Source of the DNA: Tessaracoccus antarcticus
GTDB taxonomy: Bacteria > Actinomycetota > Actinomycetes > Propionibacteriales > Propionibacteriaceae
DNA length: 64,000 nucleotides
Direction of reading: 5' to 3'
NCBI RefSeq assembly: GCF_003688855.1
Contig: NZ_REFW01000002.1
Location: 744,001 to 808,000, forward strand
The translations under genes and the position numbers were made by a program. This document shows, in pieces, positions 39,914 to 45,991 of this stretch (its first letter is position 1; every line of letters begins with the position of its first letter). The notes beneath the pieces were generated by a model. It saw only the letters and a program-made list of their open reading frames with translations. It did no database searches and was not told the DNA's origin.

Positions 39914-40381
39914 CTACCATTGTTCGGGGTCGAGAATCAGGGAACCTGACGTTTTCCCATCGCCTCGGGGCTGTCCCACCCCATCGAAGACGCCGGGACG
40001 CCGTAGGTAGCTGACCAGATCGACCGTCAGGGGCAGGGTCTCCAGGTCGTCACTGTGTACCCAGCGGGCATCGTCGGCGTCGTCCCCGGCCACCAGGTCG
40101 CCGCTGATGACCGTGGCGGCAAAGTCATGGATCTCGAACATGCGGCCGTCCGCCGTGGGTGAGCGGAGGTTCCACAATTCGCGACCGATCAGCACCCGCA
40201 GGCCAGTCTCCTCCCACGCCTCACGCGCCGCAGCCTCCTGAAGGCTCTCCCCCGGCTCGACGCTGCCACCCGGGACACTCCACCGGCCACGTTGCGGCTC
40301 CTTCCCACGTTTCACGAGCACCACCCGCCCCGCCCCGTCGGTGATGACCACCCCCACTGCCTGCACAACGCTCTCATCCAT
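39914..40381 (-). CDS. NUDIX hydrolase
   Basis: A 155-residue NUDIX protein. The catalytic box runs [20 protein letters not shown] and satisfies GX5EX7REUXEEXGU. The N-terminal [18 protein letters not shown] strand and the RWSVPGG approach are typical of enzymes acting on nucleoside diphosphate derivatives, including dihydroneopterin triphosphate and ADP-ribose. Its ATG lies inside the 3' end of the CDP-alcohol phosphotransferase gene (8-bp overlap), so the two are cotranscribed. Next to a pterin/riboflavin-like cluster, a role on a GTP-derived intermediate is conceivable but unproven. Confidence 0.9.
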
Positions 40382-41159
40382 GGGCCCAGTCCCCCTGCCG
40401 TGCGCTGCCCGGGTGTGCCTGGTCAGCGTCCCGCGGTGGTGGCGCGTCTGCGTTCTCCAAGGTGAGCACGTCACGTCCGAAGGACACCATCAGCAGTGCA
40501 AGCGACACGGCTGTGGCCACAGCGGCCACCGAAACGGGGAGCACGGGGATGAGTGCTGCCACCAGCACCCCGCCCTGGGTGCCGGCGACGATCCGCCGGA
40601 AGCGGCTGAATGCCAGTGACCCTCGCAGCGCTGGTCGCCACCAACTGGCCGCCCCGAACAGGTACCGCATGACGCCAATGCCCAGTACCCACGGACCCAC
40701 GCTCAATGACAGCGGGACGGACAGGATGAGGAACAGCACCGCGTCGGATTCCATGTCCAGCCGTCCACCGGCCGCAGAGGCCGTGTTGGTCCTGCGTGCC
40801 ACCCAGCCGTCCACCCCGTCAAGCAGATACGCCGGCAGCGCCATGACGAACAGCGGCCATGAACGGAGCGGAAGGTCGCCCCACAAGGAAAGGACCACCA
40901 GCGTCGCGCACCCGCCCGTCAGGACGATGCGGGTCAGGGTGACGCGGTCCGCCGCCGTGGTCAGGCGAGGGCGTCGTCTGAGCACGCTGATGGCCGCAAC
41001 CGTGGGGACCACGAGCCCGAACGCTGTGGCAGCGACGGCGTGGGGTGACGGCACGCCAGCACGGAGGGTCAGCGCCGCCCCCAGGATAGCCGCGCCCGCC
41101 ACAGTCAGCGCCGCATCGACGACTGCCCGCCTGCGTCCGTCTTGCTTGGTCTGGTGCAC
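40374..41159 (-). CDS. CDP-alcohol phosphatidyltransferase-family membrane enzyme
   Basis: A membrane protein of about 261 residues with five or six helices. The full catalytic motif is present: DGVDGWVARR, then eight to nine residues, GGRLDMESD, matching D-x2-DG-x2-AR-x8-G-x3-D-x3-D. Such enzymes transfer a CDP-linked group to an alcohol, usually in phospholipid synthesis; the acceptor cannot be told. The ATG at 41168 has GGGAGG touching it, whereas the GTG at 41159 has the same GGGAGG at an ideal 9 nt, so I prefer the GTG. It is transcribed away from the dehydrogenase-PTPS-glycosyltransferase operon and overlaps the NUDIX gene. Confidence 0.86.
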   Translation of the reverse strand: MHQTKQDGRRRAVVDAALTVAGAAILGAALTLRAGVPSPHAVAATAFGLVVPTVAAISVLRRRPRLTTAADRVTLTRIVLTGGCATLVVLSLWGDLPLRSWPLFVMALPAYLLDGVDGWVARRTNTASAAGGRLDMESDAVLFLILSVPLSLSVGPWVLGIGVMRYLFGAASWWRPALRGSLAFSRFRRIVAGTQGGVLVAALIPVLPVSVAAVATAVSLALLMVSFGRDVLTLENADAPPPRDADQAHPGSARQGDWAHG

Positions 41160-41278
41160 AGTGCCCATCCTCCCAGCCGCGGCAAGTCCCCGAGGGCCAA
41201 CTCCCCCGCAGCGACGCCGTGCCACCCGTGCACCCCGATTCCCGGGCGTGACGGTGCGGACAAGGGCAGAATCGACCC

Positions 41279-42307
41279 ATGTCCACGAAACGCTCCTCGT
41301 CGGGTGACGCCCTGGAGGCCACCGCATTCTGGGCGACGGGCCCCTGCCGTTCGGAGTTGCGTCGTGAACAGGTGGCTCCCCCGGCTCGGGGGGAGGCGCT
41401 GGTGCGGACCCTCTACTCGGGAATCAGCCGAGGTACCGAAATGCTGGTGCACCGCGGTGCGGTCCCGCAACGAGTTGCCCACCTCATGCGGGCCCCGTTC
41501 CAGAGCGGCGAGTTCCCGTTCCCCGTGAAGTACGGCTATCTGTCGGTCGGGGTGGTGGATCAGGGCCCACCGGGCTGGCCGGGACGACGAGTGTTCTGCC
41601 TCCACCCCCACCAGGATCGCTATGTAGTGCCCGTCGAGGCCCTCACGCTCATCCCCGACGAGGTCCCCAGCGAGCGCGCGGTGCTGGCCGGCTCGGTCGA
41701 AACAGCCATCAACGCCCTGTGGGAGTGTGCCCCGCGGATCGGGGACCGCGTCGCCGTGGTTGGGGCCGGCATCATCGGGGCGTCGTTGGCGGCCTTGTTG
41801 CGAAGGTTCCCGCTGTCGCGGCTCCAACTGGTGGATCCGGACCCGGCCAAGGGTGCCGTCGCGGAAGCCGTTGGCGTCGAGTGGGCTGCCCCGGGGGACG
41901 CCATGACCCATTGCGACATCGTCTATCACGCCTCCGCCACCGAGGCGGGGCTCGCGGGCGGTCTGGGCCAACTGGGGGAGGAGGGCGACCTCGTGGAACT
42001 GTCGTGGTACGGGACCGACTCCCCCGCCGTGCCGCTGGGCCTGGACTTCCACGCGCGCCGCCTCAGGATACGGGCCAGCCAGGTGGGGGTGATTGCGGCC
42101 CCGCGCAGAGCCCGCAGAACGCACGCCGACCGGCTCTCGTTGGCCTTCGACGCGCTCACCGACCCGGTCTTCGACGCGCTGCTGGGCGGAGCCTCCTCAT
42201 TTGCTGAACTCCCCGAGGTGATGGAATCCATGTGCCAGGGATCCCTGCCCGGCATGTGCCGCATCATCGCCTACCCGGGCACTCCATCCCACACGAAACG
42301 AGGTTGA
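41279..42307 (+). CDS. Zinc-less medium-chain dehydrogenase, first gene of the PTPS-like cluster
   Basis: A 342-residue medium-chain dehydrogenase/reductase. It carries the substrate-side motif YSGISRGTEMLVHRG, in which the usual zinc Cys is Ser, and the cofactor motif VAVVGAGIIGASLAAL followed by VDPDP. SGIS-x-GTE is also seen in the BchC-type branch, dehydrogenases of side-chain hydroxyl groups. The gene opens the plus-strand operon; the PTPS-like gene starts 5 bp after its stop. The ATG at 41279 is the only good start. Its operon suggests that it oxidises or reduces a side chain on a pteridine-like or sugar intermediate; that is inference. Confidence 0.85.
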   Translation: MSTKRSSSGDALEATAFWATGPCRSELRREQVAPPARGEALVRTLYSGISRGTEMLVHRGAVPQRVAHLMRAPFQSGEFPFPVKYGYLSVGVVDQGPPGWPGRRVFCLHPHQDRYVVPVEALTLIPDEVPSERAVLAGSVETAINALWECAPRIGDRVAVVGAGIIGASLAALLRRFPLSRLQLVDPDPAKGAVAEAVGVEWAAPGDAMTHCDIVYHASATEAGLAGGLGQLGEEGDLVELSWYGTDSPAVPLGLDFHARRLRIRASQVGVIAAPRRARRTHADRLSLAFDALTDPVFDALLGGASSFAELPEVMESMCQGSLPGMCRIIAYPGTPSHTKRG

Positions 42308-42312
42308 AACAG

Positions 42313-42693
42313 ATGTACTCCCTGACAGTCTGCGACCACATCATGATTGCCCACTCCCTGCCTGATCCGCGCTTCGGGCCCGCGCAGGGCATGCACGGCG
42401 CCACCATGGCGGTGGAGGCAACGTGGCGACGCCACGAGCTGGGTCCCCTGTCCATCGTGATGGACATCGGGGAGGCCACCTCGATGCTGGCTACGGTGCT
42501 TGACGCGTTGCGCTACGAGAACCTCGATGAACATCCGGACTTCGTGGGGCGACTGAGCACCACCGAAACCGTCGCCCGTCACATCTCCGACAAGCTGCGG
42601 GAGCGGTTCGACGAATCGGAGTTCGCCGGACTGCAGGTGCTCCTGAGGGAGCATCCGGGGGCCTGGGCCACCTACGACGTCAACTTCGGCTGA
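42313..42693 (+). CDS. 6-pyruvoyltetrahydropterin synthase-fold protein with degenerate active site
   Basis: A 126-residue PTPS/QueD-fold protein. The alignable blocks are IMIAHSLPD (H14 corresponds to the first zinc His), GMHGATM, VMDIGEATSML and LSTTETVARHI. In QueD the zinc site is completed by HGH; here it is HGA (H28, A30), so one ligand is lost. The catalytic Cys position is not Cys and the LDH Asp-His pair is replaced by LRY (R67-Y68). The conserved late Glu may remain as E113. It is therefore unlikely to make carboxytetrahydropterin. GAGG lies about 11 nt before the ATG. It sits between the dehydrogenase and glycosyltransferase genes. Confidence 0.85.
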   Translation: MYSLTVCDHIMIAHSLPDPRFGPAQGMHGATMAVEATWRRHELGPLSIVMDIGEATSMLATVLDALRYENLDEHPDFVGRLSTTETVARHISDKLRERFDESEFAGLQVLLREHPGAWATYDVNFG

Positions 42694-42705
42694 CGCGTCA
42701 CCCCG

Positions 42706-43764
42706 GTGGAGTGCGCTTTCCTGATGCCCCGCGACCTGCCAGGCCCGAGCGGCGGCACGCACTTTGACTTCGCGGTGATCAGCGCCCTGACGCAGGCCGG
42801 GCACGCCGTGCGGGTATACCAACTTCCCGGCGATTGGCCCCGCCCCACGCCCGCCGACCGGCGGGCCCTCCAGACAGCGTTGCTGGCGCAGCCGCTGGCA
42901 GTGGTGGACGGCATCGTGGCTTTGGCCGCGCCCACCGAGATCGAAGCCGCGGTCCGTATGGGTATCCGGGTGCACATCCTCGTCCACTCGCTCCTGACGG
43001 CCGACCCCGGACTTGACCACGACGCCAGATCCGCGTTCACCATGGCGGAGAGCGCCGCGCTGGCGGTGGCATCCTCCAGCAGCGTCCCCAGTCAGTGGTC
43101 GGCCACCGACATCGCGACACGCTACCCAGGCGTCCGAACTCACGTCGTGCCGCCGGGCACGTCGCCCGCGCCACCCGCGGTGGGTAGCGATCCGCCGCAA
43201 TTGCTGGTGCTGGCAGCCCTCACCCCCCTGAAGAATCAGTTGCATGCGCTGCAGGCCCTTGCGCTGCTGTCGGACCTGCCGTGGACGCTGGAACTCGTGG
43301 GCTCCGATGAGCTCGACCCCGCCTACGTGGGACGCCTGCGACACAGCATCGAGCACGACATCGGGCCCGGCCGGGTCACGCTGCGCGGGGCCGTCACGGG
43401 CGAGGCACTCGATGCTCTGTGGGAGGCCACCGACCTGCTGGTCCTGACGTCGACCAGTGAAACATTCGGCATGGTCATCACCGAGGCGCTGGCCCGCGGG
43501 GTCCCGGCCGTCGTCACGGGGGCCACCGGCGCCGCCGAAGCCCTCCGCGGGCAGGGTGTCGGGGACGGCCCGGTACCTGTCGTCGGGCTCCCGGGTGCCG
43601 TTGTGGATCCCTCTGACCCGGCCGTCCTGGCGGACACCCTGCGACTCTGGTTGTCGGAGGACGGTGTCCGCTCCTCGTGGCGGAGCGCCGCGTTGGCGCG
43701 CCGTCCTAGGCTGCAGACATGGCACCAGAGCGCAGCGGCGCTGGCACGGATCATGACCGCGTGA
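42706..43764 (+). CDS. GT-B family 4-type glycosyltransferase
   Basis: A 352-residue glycosyltransferase with the GT-B fold. The N-terminal half has PGPSGGTHFDFAVISAL (acceptor-side glycine loop); the donor half has LVLAALTPLKNQ and the EX7E motif in SETFGMVITEALARGVP. Soluble, with no membrane helix. The GTG start is 12 bp after the PTPS-like stop, and the methyltransferase gene begins within its last codons, so the genes are one operon. It would glycosylate a product of the pathway; donor and acceptor are unknown. GT1-GT4 assignment cannot be refined by eye. Confidence 0.88.
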   Translation: MECAFLMPRDLPGPSGGTHFDFAVISALTQAGHAVRVYQLPGDWPRPTPADRRALQTALLAQPLAVVDGIVALAAPTEIEAAVRMGIRVHILVHSLLTADPGLDHDARSAFTMAESAALAVASSSSVPSQWSATDIATRYPGVRTHVVPPGTSPAPPAVGSDPPQLLVLAALTPLKNQLHALQALALLSDLPWTLELVGSDELDPAYVGRLRHSIEHDIGPGRVTLRGAVTGEALDALWEATDLLVLTSTSETFGMVITEALARGVPAVVTGATGAAEALRGQGVGDGPVPVVGLPGAVVDPSDPAVLADTLRLWLSEDGVRSSWRSAALARRPRLQTWHQSAAALARIMTA

Positions 43765-44588
43765 CGCAGATCGTCCAGCGGGCCGCCAGTGACTGGTTGT
43801 CATTGCGCCGAGCCGCAGATGAAACCGCCCGCCAGGCCAGTGTGGCGGCGCTGCCAGCGCTGGACGCCCACCTGTCCTCCCGGCTGGGTCCCGGGACGGC
43901 CGTCACCGTGTGCGATCTGGGGGCCGGCACCGGCGCCAACATGGCATGGCTTGCGCCCCGTCTTGCCGTGCGGCAGCGGTGGACACTGGTGGATCGTGAC
44001 GAGGACCTCCTGCACCAGGTGCCCACTGCCGCTCCGTCGGACGCGGTCCTGGGGGTCCGTCGGATCGCTGCGGAACTGGAGGACCTGCAGCACGACGACG
44101 CAGCCGGCACCCCCGCGGACCTCGTCACCTGCTCCGCCTTCCTCGACGTCCTCACGGTGGGGCAGGTACGGGAACTGGCTGCCTTCGTGGCGCGCATAGG
44201 GGCAGCGGCACTTTTCAGCCTGAGCGTCACGGGCGTCGTCCGCATGGACCCTGTCCTGGAGTTGGACTCCCGCCTCAACGACGTATTCAACGCCCACCAG
44301 GTGCGCCACGGACTTGCCGGGCCAGGGGCCACCGCCGTGGCGGCACAGGTGCTGTGCAGCAACGGGTTCACCGTCGGACTCATCGAGACACCGTGGGTAC
44401 TGGGGGCACAGCAGGCTCCCCTGGTGGAGCGCTACCTCAGCGATCGCGTCGCAGCGGTGATCGACCACGACCCAGCCCTGGTTGAGCCGTCACGTGATTG
44501 GTTGGGGCTGCGGATGTCACAACTCCGCGACGGCCTCCTGTCGCTCCGGGTGGGCCACACGGATCTTGTGGCGCTGCCCTCCGACTAG
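43761..44588 (+). CDS. Class I SAM-dependent methyltransferase
   Basis: A Rossmann-fold methyltransferase of about 275 residues. Motif I is VCDLGAGTGANMAWL, with an acidic residue in TLVDRDEDLL ending the next strand, and LVTCSAFLDVLT is the motif-IV region. I chose GTG at 43761, which gives a GTGA overlap with the glycosyltransferase stop; an in-frame ATG at 43719 adds 14 residues. It converges on the RibA-RibD fusion gene with a 4-bp overlap. The target atom is unknown. Its fixed place in this operon suggests O- or N-methylation of the glycosylated product. Confidence 0.88.
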   Translation: MTQIVQRAASDWLSLRRAADETARQASVAALPALDAHLSSRLGPGTAVTVCDLGAGTGANMAWLAPRLAVRQRWTLVDRDEDLLHQVPTAAPSDAVLGVRRIAAELEDLQHDDAAGTPADLVTCSAFLDVLTVGQVRELAAFVARIGAAALFSLSVTGVVRMDPVLELDSRLNDVFNAHQVRHGLAGPGATAVAAQVLCSNGFTVGLIETPWVLGAQQAPLVERYLSDRVAAVIDHDPALVEPSRDWLGLRMSQLRDGLLSLRVGHTDLVALPSD

Positions 44589-45949
44589 GCGAAGGTGAAC
44601 TCCGAACAGATGTCGTTGCCGAGCAGGAAACGCCGCACAGGCGCGGTGATGGCCCCTGACAAGGCGTCGGTGCCGTCGAAACGGATACCGGGGATGCCGT
44701 CACCCACCAGCATGGGGGCTGTGGTGAGAAACAGCCGGTCCAGTACGCCGCCACGCAGGAATGTGGACACGGTCACCCCACCGCCCTCGACGAGCACCCT
44801 CTTCAGGCCCTGACGGCCCAAACGCTCCAGCACGCGAGAGGGCGCGAAAGCTTCCATCGATTCGAGCCGATGGATGTCGACATGGTCCGCAACGCGCTCG
44901 GGCACCACCGCGTCCGGCCCCACGAACCACAGGGTGGGGGCGACCGGATCACTGAGGAGCTTCGCGTCCGTGGGGATGCGGGCGTGGGGGTCCAGGACCA
45001 CCCTGACGGGGTGCGCACCGCTAACGGAGCGCACCGTGAGCTGGCAGTCGTCGGCAGTGACGGTACCGGCCCCGACGATGACGGCGTCCACCAGCGCTCG
45101 GAGGCGGTGCAGATGTTCGCGATCCTCCTCCCCGGTGACGAAGCATGCGTCTCCGGTGCGGGAGGCGATGAAACCGTCGATGCTCTGCCCCAGCTGGGCG
45201 ATGACGAGGCGTTCACCGGCCTGGACCAGTGGGCCGTAGCGGTCGACCAACTCCATCTGGAGCGGATCGAGTTCTCCGTCGGGGATCACACCGACGCTCA
45301 GTTGCTCCCACGCCTGAGGATCGGGAACGGGGTCGTGTTCCATCCGCGAGCGCTTCGCGTTGAGGTAGGCAGTGTTCTCTGCACGGTCCGGAACGTGGAG
45401 CCGCTGCCGCCCCACCACGGTGATGCCCAGCGCCTCCAACGCGATCTGCTTGGCCGGATTCGACGTCAACAGCCGCACCGTCTCGATACCCAGATCCCGA
45501 AGGATGTCGGCACCCTGCCTGTAGTCGCGTGAGTCGATGGGAAGCCCAAGATCAGTGTTGGCGTCGACGGTGTCCCGGCCGTTGTCCTGGAGCGCGTAGG
45601 CGCGGAGCTTGTTGAGGAGCCCGATGCCGCGGCCCTCATGCCCGCGCATGTAGACGAGTGCCCCGGATGTGGCACGACTGATGGTGCCGAGGGCCGCGTC
45701 GAGTTGTTCGCCACAGTCGCATCTGTAGGAGCCGAACGCGTCCCCCGTGAGGCATTCCGAGTGGACCCGGACCAGGGGCGGTTCACCAGTGAAACCGTTG
45801 TGGCTCCCCCACACCAGGGCGACGTGCTCCGCTCCAGCCAGACCCGCGTAGCCCACCATGTCGAAGGTCCCGTGGCGGGTGGGGAGTCTCGTCGTCACGA
45901 CGCGCGTCACCGTCACCGCAGCGTCTCGTCGTGCATTCTCAAGCGACAT
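44585..45949 (-). CDS. GTP cyclohydrolase II fused to a RibD-type reductase domain
   Basis: A 454-residue two-domain protein. Residues ~15-205 are a complete GTP cyclohydrolase II: the zinc cysteines C66, C77 and C79 in HSECLTGDAFGSYRCDCG, the catalytic MRGHEGRGIGL and the LLTSNPAKQ loop. Residues ~240-452 are a RibD C-terminal, dihydrofolate-reductase-like domain with IAQLGQSIDGF and VGAGTVTADDCQLTVR. There is neither a RibB domain nor a RibD deaminase domain. GTP would be opened to the diaminopyrimidine and its ribosyl group reduced without deamination, as in archaea and fungi. It lies convergent with the PTPS-like operon rather than in a rib operon, so it may serve a separate pathway. Confidence 0.92.
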   Translation of the reverse strand: MSLENARRDAAVTVTRVVTTRLPTRHGTFDMVGYAGLAGAEHVALVWGSHNGFTGEPPLVRVHSECLTGDAFGSYRCDCGEQLDAALGTISRATSGALVYMRGHEGRGIGLLNKLRAYALQDNGRDTVDANTDLGLPIDSRDYRQGADILRDLGIETVRLLTSNPAKQIALEALGITVVGRQRLHVPDRAENTAYLNAKRSRMEHDPVPDPQAWEQLSVGVIPDGELDPLQMELVDRYGPLVQAGERLVIAQLGQSIDGFIASRTGDACFVTGEEDREHLHRLRALVDAVIVGAGTVTADDCQLTVRSVSGAHPVRVVLDPHARIPTDAKLLSDPVAPTLWFVGPDAVVPERVADHVDIHRLESMEAFAPSRVLERLGRQGLKRVLVEGGGVTVSTFLRGGVLDRLFLTTAPMLVGDGIPGIRFDGTDALSGAITAPVRRFLLGNDICSEFTFA

Positions 45950-45991
45950 GGGGGAATAGTAGTTCGGGGCTCAACGATCCGTGAGCGGCGA

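Follow-up and report, generated by a model that had tools for sequence, protein, structure and literature searches.

What does an actinobacterium make from GTP when a fused GTP cyclohydrolase II (RibA) and pyrimidine reductase (RibD_C) is encoded beside a degenerate PTPS protein, a dehydrogenase, a glycosyltransferase and a methyltransferase? We examined this for a stretch of 64,000 nt from Tessaracoccus antarcticus (GCF_003688855.1, contig NZ_REFW01000002.1, positions 744,001-808,000 of the forward strand), referred to below as the window. The cluster, which is widespread in actinobacteria, seems to redirect the opening reactions of the vitamin B2 route to a different, sugar- and methyl-decorated compound, which is probably pterin-like.

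Gene layout and conservation of the cluster

The genes that an earlier note had named in this DNA are present (Table 1), with a coding-like codon composition, and six of the seven products exceed the curated Pfam cut-off. The range 40374..45949 given for the cluster accommodates these genes with the exception of the NUDIX gene, which lies mostly outside it; by blast the NUDIX gene adjoins the cluster in only one of 20 relatives, namely L039, which is the closest to the window, and its conserved membership was not upheld. The coding character of the CDP-alcohol gene was backed by the codon model, and its start is more likely at ~41159-41168 than at 41327.

Table 1. Features of the cluster in the window (positions counted from the first nucleotide of the window).
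Feature	Position	Strand	Remarks
RibA-RibD_C fusion, 454 aa	44585..45949	-	GTP cyclohydrolase II, residues 16-181; pyrimidine reductase, residues 248-422
Codon of Tyr118 of the fusion	45596..45598	-	Aligned with Tyr105 of E. coli GCH II, chain 2bz0
Medium-chain dehydrogenase, polyol-dehydrogenase fold, BchC-like, probably without catalytic zinc	41279..42307	+	
PTPS-IV protein, FGPAQ signature, third zinc His replaced by Ala	42313..42693	+	PF01242, 76.9 bits
GT-B (GT4-type) glycosyltransferase	42706..43764	+	PF00534 (Glycos_transf_1), 75.8 bits
SAM methyltransferase; overlaps glycosyltransferase gene, start possibly downstream of 43719	43719..44588	+	PF13649 (Methyltransf_25), 31.5 bits
CDP-alcohol phosphotransferase, divergent from the dehydrogenase	40374..41168	-	CDP-OH_P_transf, 36.7 bits
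NUDIX hydrolase, neighbour, probably not a core member	39914..40387	-	PF00293, 86.9 bits

Cluster loci numbered at least 590 overall. The main comparison was made with 101 Actinomycetes-type loci (a stretch of ~20 kb each), to which were added 12 deep loci (113 in all), fetched from 29 matches outside the class whose dehydrogenases were 31-39% identical. The gene order, whose loss in relatives the earlier note had named beforehand as counting against its reading, was kept as dehydrogenase, PTPS, glycosyltransferase in 91/101 loci. The 101 loci held genes for PTPS (99), glycosyltransferase (94), CDP-alcohol transferase (75), an LPG_synthase_TM protein (71), methyltransferase (68), RibA (66), creatininase (45) and RibD (37); the chance of finding a RibA gene within a random 21 kb stretch is ~0.75%, compared with the 66/101 seen. 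RibA was not seen in the stretch of the other 35 loci, 15 of which belong to Arthrobacter or Pseudarthrobacter. Among the deep loci, RibD and the dehydrogenase occurred together in 12/12, PTPS was found by blast in 7/12 and by Pfam in 3/3 scanned of the other five, and a methyltransferase follows the glycosyltransferase in two (L184 and L187). Inclusion of the CDP-alcohol transferase in the cluster, as first proposed, agrees with its frequency and with the motif DGxxARx8Gx3Dx3D, which we take to be the catalytic motif of CDP-alcohol phosphotransferases, being invariant in 20/20 aligned sequences. The cluster is thus a true one, and its genes are not neighbours by chance. That they form a dedicated pathway of actinobacteria, found throughout the phylum, we judge, jointly with the whole mechanism proposed below, to be evenly balanced between true and false.

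Catalytic tyrosine of RibA and the creatininase-family gene

The fusion matches PF00925 (GTP_cyclohydro2) at 210 bits and PF01872 (RibD_C) at 127 bits, and RibA-RibD_C fusions occur in 12 further loci out of the 113. Tyr105 of the E. coli enzyme is presumably the catalytic position, and in the alignment this Tyr is retained by the window RibA; the cysteine-rich SECLTGD stretch (zinc-cysteine region) aligns with both 2bz0 and 4i14. As judged by alignment, the fusion has the catalytic Tyr and zinc-cysteine region of a one-step GTP cyclohydrolase II.

The residue at this position divides the cluster RibAs. A creatininase-family gene was found in the stretch in 0/26 loci with a Tyr-type RibA and in 44/45 loci with a Met-, His- or Ile-type RibA; RibD_C was detected in just 9/45 of the latter. 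Genome-wide, a close creatininase (58-67% identity, or the query itself) was present in 16/16 genomes of the non-Tyr type and in 1/16 of the Tyr type, the single case (G303) having its gene located away from the cluster. More distant relatives (31-39% identical) occurred in 6/16 Tyr-type genomes, and no member of the creatininase family was found in the window's genome. This pattern is new here, and the support for its phylogenetic independence is weak, amounting to at most five independent pairs, one of them on well-supported branches.

The split fits two routes to 2,5-diamino-6-ribosylamino-pyrimidinone 5'-phosphate (DARPP), the compound to which RibA would open GTP in the first step of the pathway. 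A Tyr-type RibA, such as that of the window, would form DARPP alone; a RibA without the Tyr would go no further than FAPy, a formyl compound, leaving the creatininase-family deformylase to complete DARPP. Spoonamore and Bandarian reportedly found that SCO6655 of Streptomyces coelicolor has Met at the catalytic position and yields FAPy, whereas the window RibA keeps the Tyr and is fused to RibD_C. SCO6655 is annotated as a GTP cyclohydrolase II in PMC2853524. The deformylation itself has precedent in BrbF, a creatininase-family protein of Sinorhizobium that converts AFRPP (= FAPy) to the diaminopyrimidine, and in archaeal ArfB, which carries out the same reaction (both described in PMC9478397). 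There BrbF serves riboflavin, and ArfB riboflavin and a deazaflavin, whereas the cluster homologues accompany RibAs of the non-Tyr type.

Dehydrogenase, PTPS-IV protein and putative decorating enzymes

For the steps after DARPP we infer a series in which the compound passes through a ribityl form to a dihydropterin that is glycosylated, methylated and, in many hosts, attached to lipid; to this proposal as a whole, from GTP onward, we would give an even chance. The ribosyl chain would be reduced to ribityl by RibD_C. The C2'-hydroxyl of the ribityl chain would then be oxidized by the polyol-dehydrogenase-like enzyme and the ketone would close upon the 5-amino group, giving a pterin like 7,8-dihydroneopterin phosphate, with PTPS-IV as a putative pterin-binding or closing factor. 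In this way a redox step would take the place of the sugar rearrangement that GTP cyclohydrolase I carries out. Thereafter the pterin would be glycosylated and methylated, and in many hosts the PgsA/PIPS-like CDP-alcohol enzyme, which may attach the lipid, and an LPG_synthase_TM-type membrane protein would fix it to the membrane. The most explicit form of this scheme, with a GCH I-independent pterin arising from RibA, C1' reduction by RibD_C and C2' re-oxidation as a hydrogen-borrowing stand-in for the Amadori rearrangement, then glycosylated, methylated and fixed to phospholipid by a PgsA/PIPS-like enzyme to give a membrane lipid with a pterin head, and with two interchangeable versions of the first step, is unlikely to be right in all its parts.

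The dehydrogenase has no Pfam match above cut-off. It scored 44.7 bits against the BchC model TIGR01202, far under the cut-off of 291.25, and was rejected as a true BchC. Its predicted fold is clearly that of a medium-chain dehydrogenase, and lies nearest to polyol dehydrogenases, the top matches being tied within ~1 Z. Cys107 and Cys327 are present in 92/101 and 96/101 of the Actinomycetes-type sequences, but the 12 deep rows do not conserve them; no alignment column has a Cys common to both sets. Because no Cys is shared by all groups, the enzyme is unlikely to use the zinc mechanism that is usual for polyol dehydrogenases, and the catalytic zinc is probably absent.

The solved structure that best matches the window PTPS is 3d7j (SCO6650; E 5.6e-30). 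The protein carries FGPAQ at residues 21-25, and among 99 PTPS rows these residues are conserved in 98 (F21), 97 (G22), 98 (P23), 97 (A24) and 94 (Q25). FGPAQ is given in PMC5445326 as the signature of PTPS-IV (COG0720), whose 561-sequence node (AGeNNT cluster-node 62) has PF00925 and PF01872 neighbours; both marks are found in the window, and both are shared with the family that includes SCO6650. The association of PTPS-IV with RibA/RibD neighbours is therefore already in print. The text of PMC5445326 on this family names no product, and mentions neither the dehydrogenase, creatininase, LPG_TM and CDP-alcohol genes nor the Tyr/creatininase link. According to the same text, PTPS-I, -II and -III (QueD, BH4, folate) carry CxxxHGH, CxxxxxHGH or ExxHGH; the window protein reads HGA, so assignment to these classes was rejected and the earlier term "degenerate" is apt.

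The catalytic His is missing from PTPS-IV, and the Actinomycetes proteins also lack the third zinc ligand (Ala30 in 95/99 rows); they may therefore have no enzymatic activity. This loss, together with the lack of any known type of cyclizing enzyme among the cluster genes scanned, favours a scheme with no pterin, in which PTPS-IV is a binding or scaffold protein and the cell glycosylates and methylates DARPP, or the ribityl compound made from it, and exports the resulting diaminopyrimidine. We regard this as possible but doubtful. Against it, the deep relatives retain His at position 30 (10/10 rows) within an HxH zinc motif (10/10; HGH in 7), and no gene accompanies the dehydrogenase more constantly than that of PTPS (99/101); this constancy and the deep motif suggest that PTPS carries out a genuine step on a compound of pterin type. 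Glu113, which we take to be the pterin-anchoring residue, is invariant (109/109).

It is rather unlikely that the product is instead a membrane lipid with a pyrimidine or pterin head group, the CDP-alcohol enzyme joining the head to CDP-diacylglycerol and the LPG_synthase_TM protein moving the lipid. The frequency of both genes (75/101 and 71/101) and the fold of the CDP-alcohol enzyme, nearest to enzymes using polyol-phosphate acceptors, are consistent with such a lipid, as is a sulfatase-like domain in 21/101 loci, which in several is joined to the CDP-alcohol domain in one predicted gene. However, Arthrobacter-type loci have the dehydrogenase, PTPS and glycosyltransferase genes without either membrane-related gene, no CDP-alcohol match was obtained by blast in the 12 deep loci, and no LPG_synthase_TM match adjoins the cluster in the window. 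Were the lipid reading true, many actinobacteria would have membrane lipids of a new class.

Flavin capacity of the host and relation to known systems

Returning to the pterin proposal, we considered whether the fusion simply feeds riboflavin or F420 synthesis, with the cluster a chance or regulatory neighbourhood. The earlier note had held that its reading would fall if the fusion were the only RibA/RibD reductase of the genome. The fusion is indeed the only PF00925 protein of the host; RibD_C is not unique (7 matches). This outcome does not refute the reading, because lumazine synthase, reported missing from the window, was found nowhere in the host genome either (the control was found in 14/14 genomes) and CofH (FO synthase) had no match there (TIGR03551, E <= 0.001), so that the fusion would not serve riboflavin or F420 in this host. 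Among 39 genomes of the genus RibA is present in six. In four of these it stands alongside lumazine synthase, which the other two, G266 and that of the window, lack; a dehydrogenase search of 31 genus genomes showed the cluster in these two only. Lumazine synthase was likewise not found in G261 and G301, and two or more RibAs were present in 30/40 cluster genomes. Three genomes (G251, G012 and G326) have no RibA other than that of the cluster and encode lumazine synthase elsewhere, so in them the cluster RibA may have a part in riboflavin synthesis too. With the linkage conserved across the phylum, the riboflavin/F420 explanation is very improbable and, for the window's genome, largely refuted; the locus comparisons and the lumazine synthase result support the earlier reading of a dedicated non-riboflavin pathway from GTP with a conserved gene order. 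A 7-deazapurine or queuosine-type pathway is scarcely credible, since PTPS superfamily membership and a weak QueD match (28.4 bits, cut-off 89) stand against HGA in place of CxxxHGH, the absence of QueC and QueE among the cluster genes scanned, and a cyclohydrolase that is GCH II and not GCH I.

The order ptps-gt-mt-lpg-cre-ribA of the Streptomyces locus appears to fit the numbering SCO6650-SCO6655. The pattern described here puts SCO6655 and SCO6650, the latter with a solved structure, in one pathway with named partners. It also predicts the intermediate and tells for which RibAs a deformylase should be required; a second natural way from GTP to a pterin would be at hand if the dehydrogenase step is true.

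Clusters of the pseudoiodinine/toxoflavin type likewise combine a RibD protein with an enzyme resembling GTP cyclohydrolase II for a specialized product, as outlined in PMC9911603. No PTPS, dehydrogenase or glycosyltransferase is among the psd genes listed there, which do include those for a sulphatase-modifying factor and a WD-40 protein; the window is the reverse, none of the nine window products scanned being a WD-40 protein or sulphatase-modifying factor. Since neither lumazine synthase nor CofH is detectable in the host, little flux of flavin or F420 precursors is expected, making it a natural test background. DARPP for assays has been produced with E. coli RibA, as in the work on 8-azaguanine (PMC7109123).

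Layout and conservation of the cluster

Cluster features (window positions)
Feature	Position	Strand	Remark
CDP-alcohol phosphotransferase gene	within 40374-45949	-	end overlapped by NUDIX gene
Medium-chain dehydrogenase	within 40374-45949	+
PTPS-fold protein	within 40374-45949	+
Glycosyltransferase	within 40374-45949	+
Methyltransferase	within 40374-45949	+
RibA-RibD_C fusion	within 40374-45949	-	convergent to + genes
TACTAT hexamer	45956-45961		6 bases upstream of fusion ATG

Predicted gene coordinates leave 5 bp between dehydrogenase and PTPS and 12 bp between PTPS and glycosyltransferase; the glycosyltransferase and methyltransferase genes overlap, and the methyltransferase and fusion genes converge with a 4 bp overlap. 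The hexamer is placed as if the fusion message were nearly leaderless.

We examined conservation with the window dehydrogenase as query. At order level (E <= 1e-15), 41 of the 293 genomes searched matched; the set includes 31 genus genomes, of which only the window's genome and G266 matched. At phylum level (E <= 1e-50), 38 of 396 genomes matched, 29 of the 38 lying outside the class. A scan of named genomes gave at least 590 loci, of which 80 (Arthrobacter, Streptomyces, Amycolatopsis, Actinomadura, Nocardiopsis, Georgenia, Kocuria and others) were retained and combined with 20 other stretches and the window into a 101-locus set. Partner genes detected there by tblastn were PTPS (99), glycosyltransferase (94), CDP-alcohol (75), the membrane protein LPG_synthase_TM (71), methyltransferase (68), RibA (66), creatininase (45), RibD_C (37) and sulfatase-like (21); from per-genome RibA counts, the chance of meeting a RibA in any 21 kb taken at random from these genomes is about 0.75%. 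The cluster is conserved: the order dehydrogenase-PTPS-glycosyltransferase was kept in 91 of the 101 loci, followed by methyltransferase in 60 and LPG_synthase_TM in 53.

Fifteen Arthrobacter-type loci (L059, L061-L064, L067-L070, L072, L073, L078, L083, L089, L115) have the dehydrogenase, PTPS and glycosyltransferase genes only (the last not found in L089); RibA, methyltransferase, LPG_synthase_TM and CDP-alcohol genes were not found within these stretches, and RibA occurs elsewhere in the genome, in 1-2 copies, for L062, L063, L064 and L072. CDP-alcohol and sulfatase-like regions share one predicted gene of about 700-780 aa, near the dehydrogenase and divergent from the cluster, in L046, L047, L049 and L051-L053, and are two separate genes in L048. 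Downstream of the cluster, many Streptomyces loci carry an ornithine-cyclodeaminase-type gene and genes of families f13, f11 and f12 (about 16493-20817 in L075).

RibA catalytic residue and creatininase

At the alignment position of E. coli Tyr105, the 71 RibA loci (66 from the 101-locus set, 5 from 12 distant, "deep" loci outside the class) carry Tyr (26 loci), Met (35), His (8) or Ile (2). None of the 26 Tyr loci has a creatininase-family gene within the stretch, whereas 44 of 45 non-Tyr loci do, the sole exception (L121) being a 13.7 kb stretch on a short contig. When 32 genomes (16 of each type, that of L099 not included) were searched with the Kibdelosporangium creatininase, all 16 non-Tyr genomes proved to have a close homologue (the query itself, or 58-67% identical), against 1 of the 16 Tyr genomes. 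Distant relatives (30-43% identity) turned up in both groups, on the Tyr side in 6 of 16 genomes. In the single Tyr-type genome that has a close homologue, G303 (locus L097), this gene and a second RibA, about 9 kb apart, lie at contig C5 457832-468324, on a different contig from the cluster. Of the first 17 Tyr loci to be scored, 16 have RibD_C, versus 9 of 45 non-Tyr loci. Each of the two traits has changed at least 5 times across the dehydrogenase tree. There are at most 5 independent Tyr/creatininase pairs, 1 of them on well-supported branches; the link is therefore strong by count and modest in independence.

The Streptomyces paralogue SCO6655 reportedly has Met at the Tyr105-equivalent position and is said to yield the formyl intermediate. 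BrbF, a creatininase-family protein of Sinorhizobium, deformylates that intermediate to the diaminopyrimidine, and archaeal ArfB does likewise, according to passages in PMC9478397. Given this precedent and the chemistry reported for SCO6655, both RibA versions should end in 2,5-diamino-6-ribosylamino-pyrimidinone 5'-phosphate (DARPP); Tyr RibA, or non-Tyr RibA plus creatininase, should be two ways to the same INTERMEDIATE.

Riboflavin and F420

The window cluster very probably serves neither riboflavin nor F420. The fusion is the sole PF00925 match in the 3.65 Mb genome, which has seven RibD_C matches; CofH was not found in that genome, nor was lumazine synthase. Across the genus, lumazine synthase was above cut-off in 4 of 39 genomes and RibA in 6. 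Four of those six RibA carriers also have lumazine synthase; the window's genome and G266 make up the remaining two. The dehydrogenase search covered 31 of the 39 genomes, and there these two alone carry the cluster. Riboflavin synthesis looks to have been lost over most of the genus. Among the 40 other cluster genomes, at least two RibA copies were present in 30, and lumazine synthase was not found in three (G266, G261, G301). Counting against a strict non-riboflavin reading, G251, G012 and G326 have lumazine synthase with the cluster RibA as their sole RibA, which may thus serve two masters there; this would also imply that Tyr-type RibA yields the ordinary intermediate.

Proposed chemistry, distant loci and literature

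By organic logic, oxidation at C2' would turn a ribityl diaminopyrimidine phosphate into the rearranged GTP cyclohydrolase I intermediate, as the monophosphate, which would then undergo ring closure to 7,8-dihydroneopterin 3'-phosphate. A reductase with an adjoining polyol-type dehydrogenase, then a pterin-binding fold, glycosyltransferase and methyltransferase, would fit this scheme. We offer C2' oxidation and closure to a dihydropterin only tentatively; the wider proposal of a dedicated, DARPP-derived, decorated, pterin-type product has about an even chance of being correct. Attachment to a lipid is likely only at loci that have the CDP-alcohol as well as the LPG_synthase_TM gene; both are absent from Arthrobacter-type loci, and LPG_synthase_TM was not found beside the window cluster.

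From the 29 matches outside the class, 12 loci were fetched (families f12, f21, f23; dehydrogenase identity 31-39%), and in all 12 RibD_C, alone or in fusion, adjoins the dehydrogenase. Seven are ordered ribD-dehydrogenase-PTPS-glycosyltransferase, in agreement with the proposed step sequence, with methyltransferase next in both of those scanned (L184, L187); in the other five a RibA-RibD_C fusion diverges from the dehydrogenase, which PTPS follows in all three scanned (L190, L191, L192). The fusion is present in 13 of all 113 loci.

A publication on the whole cluster was not found in the literature searched, whose scope left out most subscription journals. PTPS-IV neighbourhoods with PF00925 and PF01872 are reported for a 561-sequence node in the AGeNNT paper, which names no product in the passages concerned (PMC5445326); its text there labels PF00925 'GTP cyclohydrolase I / FolE2', and Pfam's PF00925 is GTP cyclohydrolase II. 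Functions are given for PTPS-I to III only in the relevant part of PMC5041015. The Streptomyces order PTPS-glycosyltransferase-methyltransferase-LPG_synthase_TM-creatininase-RibA matches, judging from gene numbers, S. coelicolor SCO6650 to SCO6655, the last listed as GTP cyclohydrolase II in an entry of PMC2853524. The pseudoiodinine cluster, as described in part of PMC9911603, is a specialised-product cluster with a GTP cyclohydrolase II-like enzyme. In deep loci L184-L189 and L193, the PTPS relatives have the FGPA signature together with a complete HGH zinc motif, a likely ancestral state of PTPS-IV.
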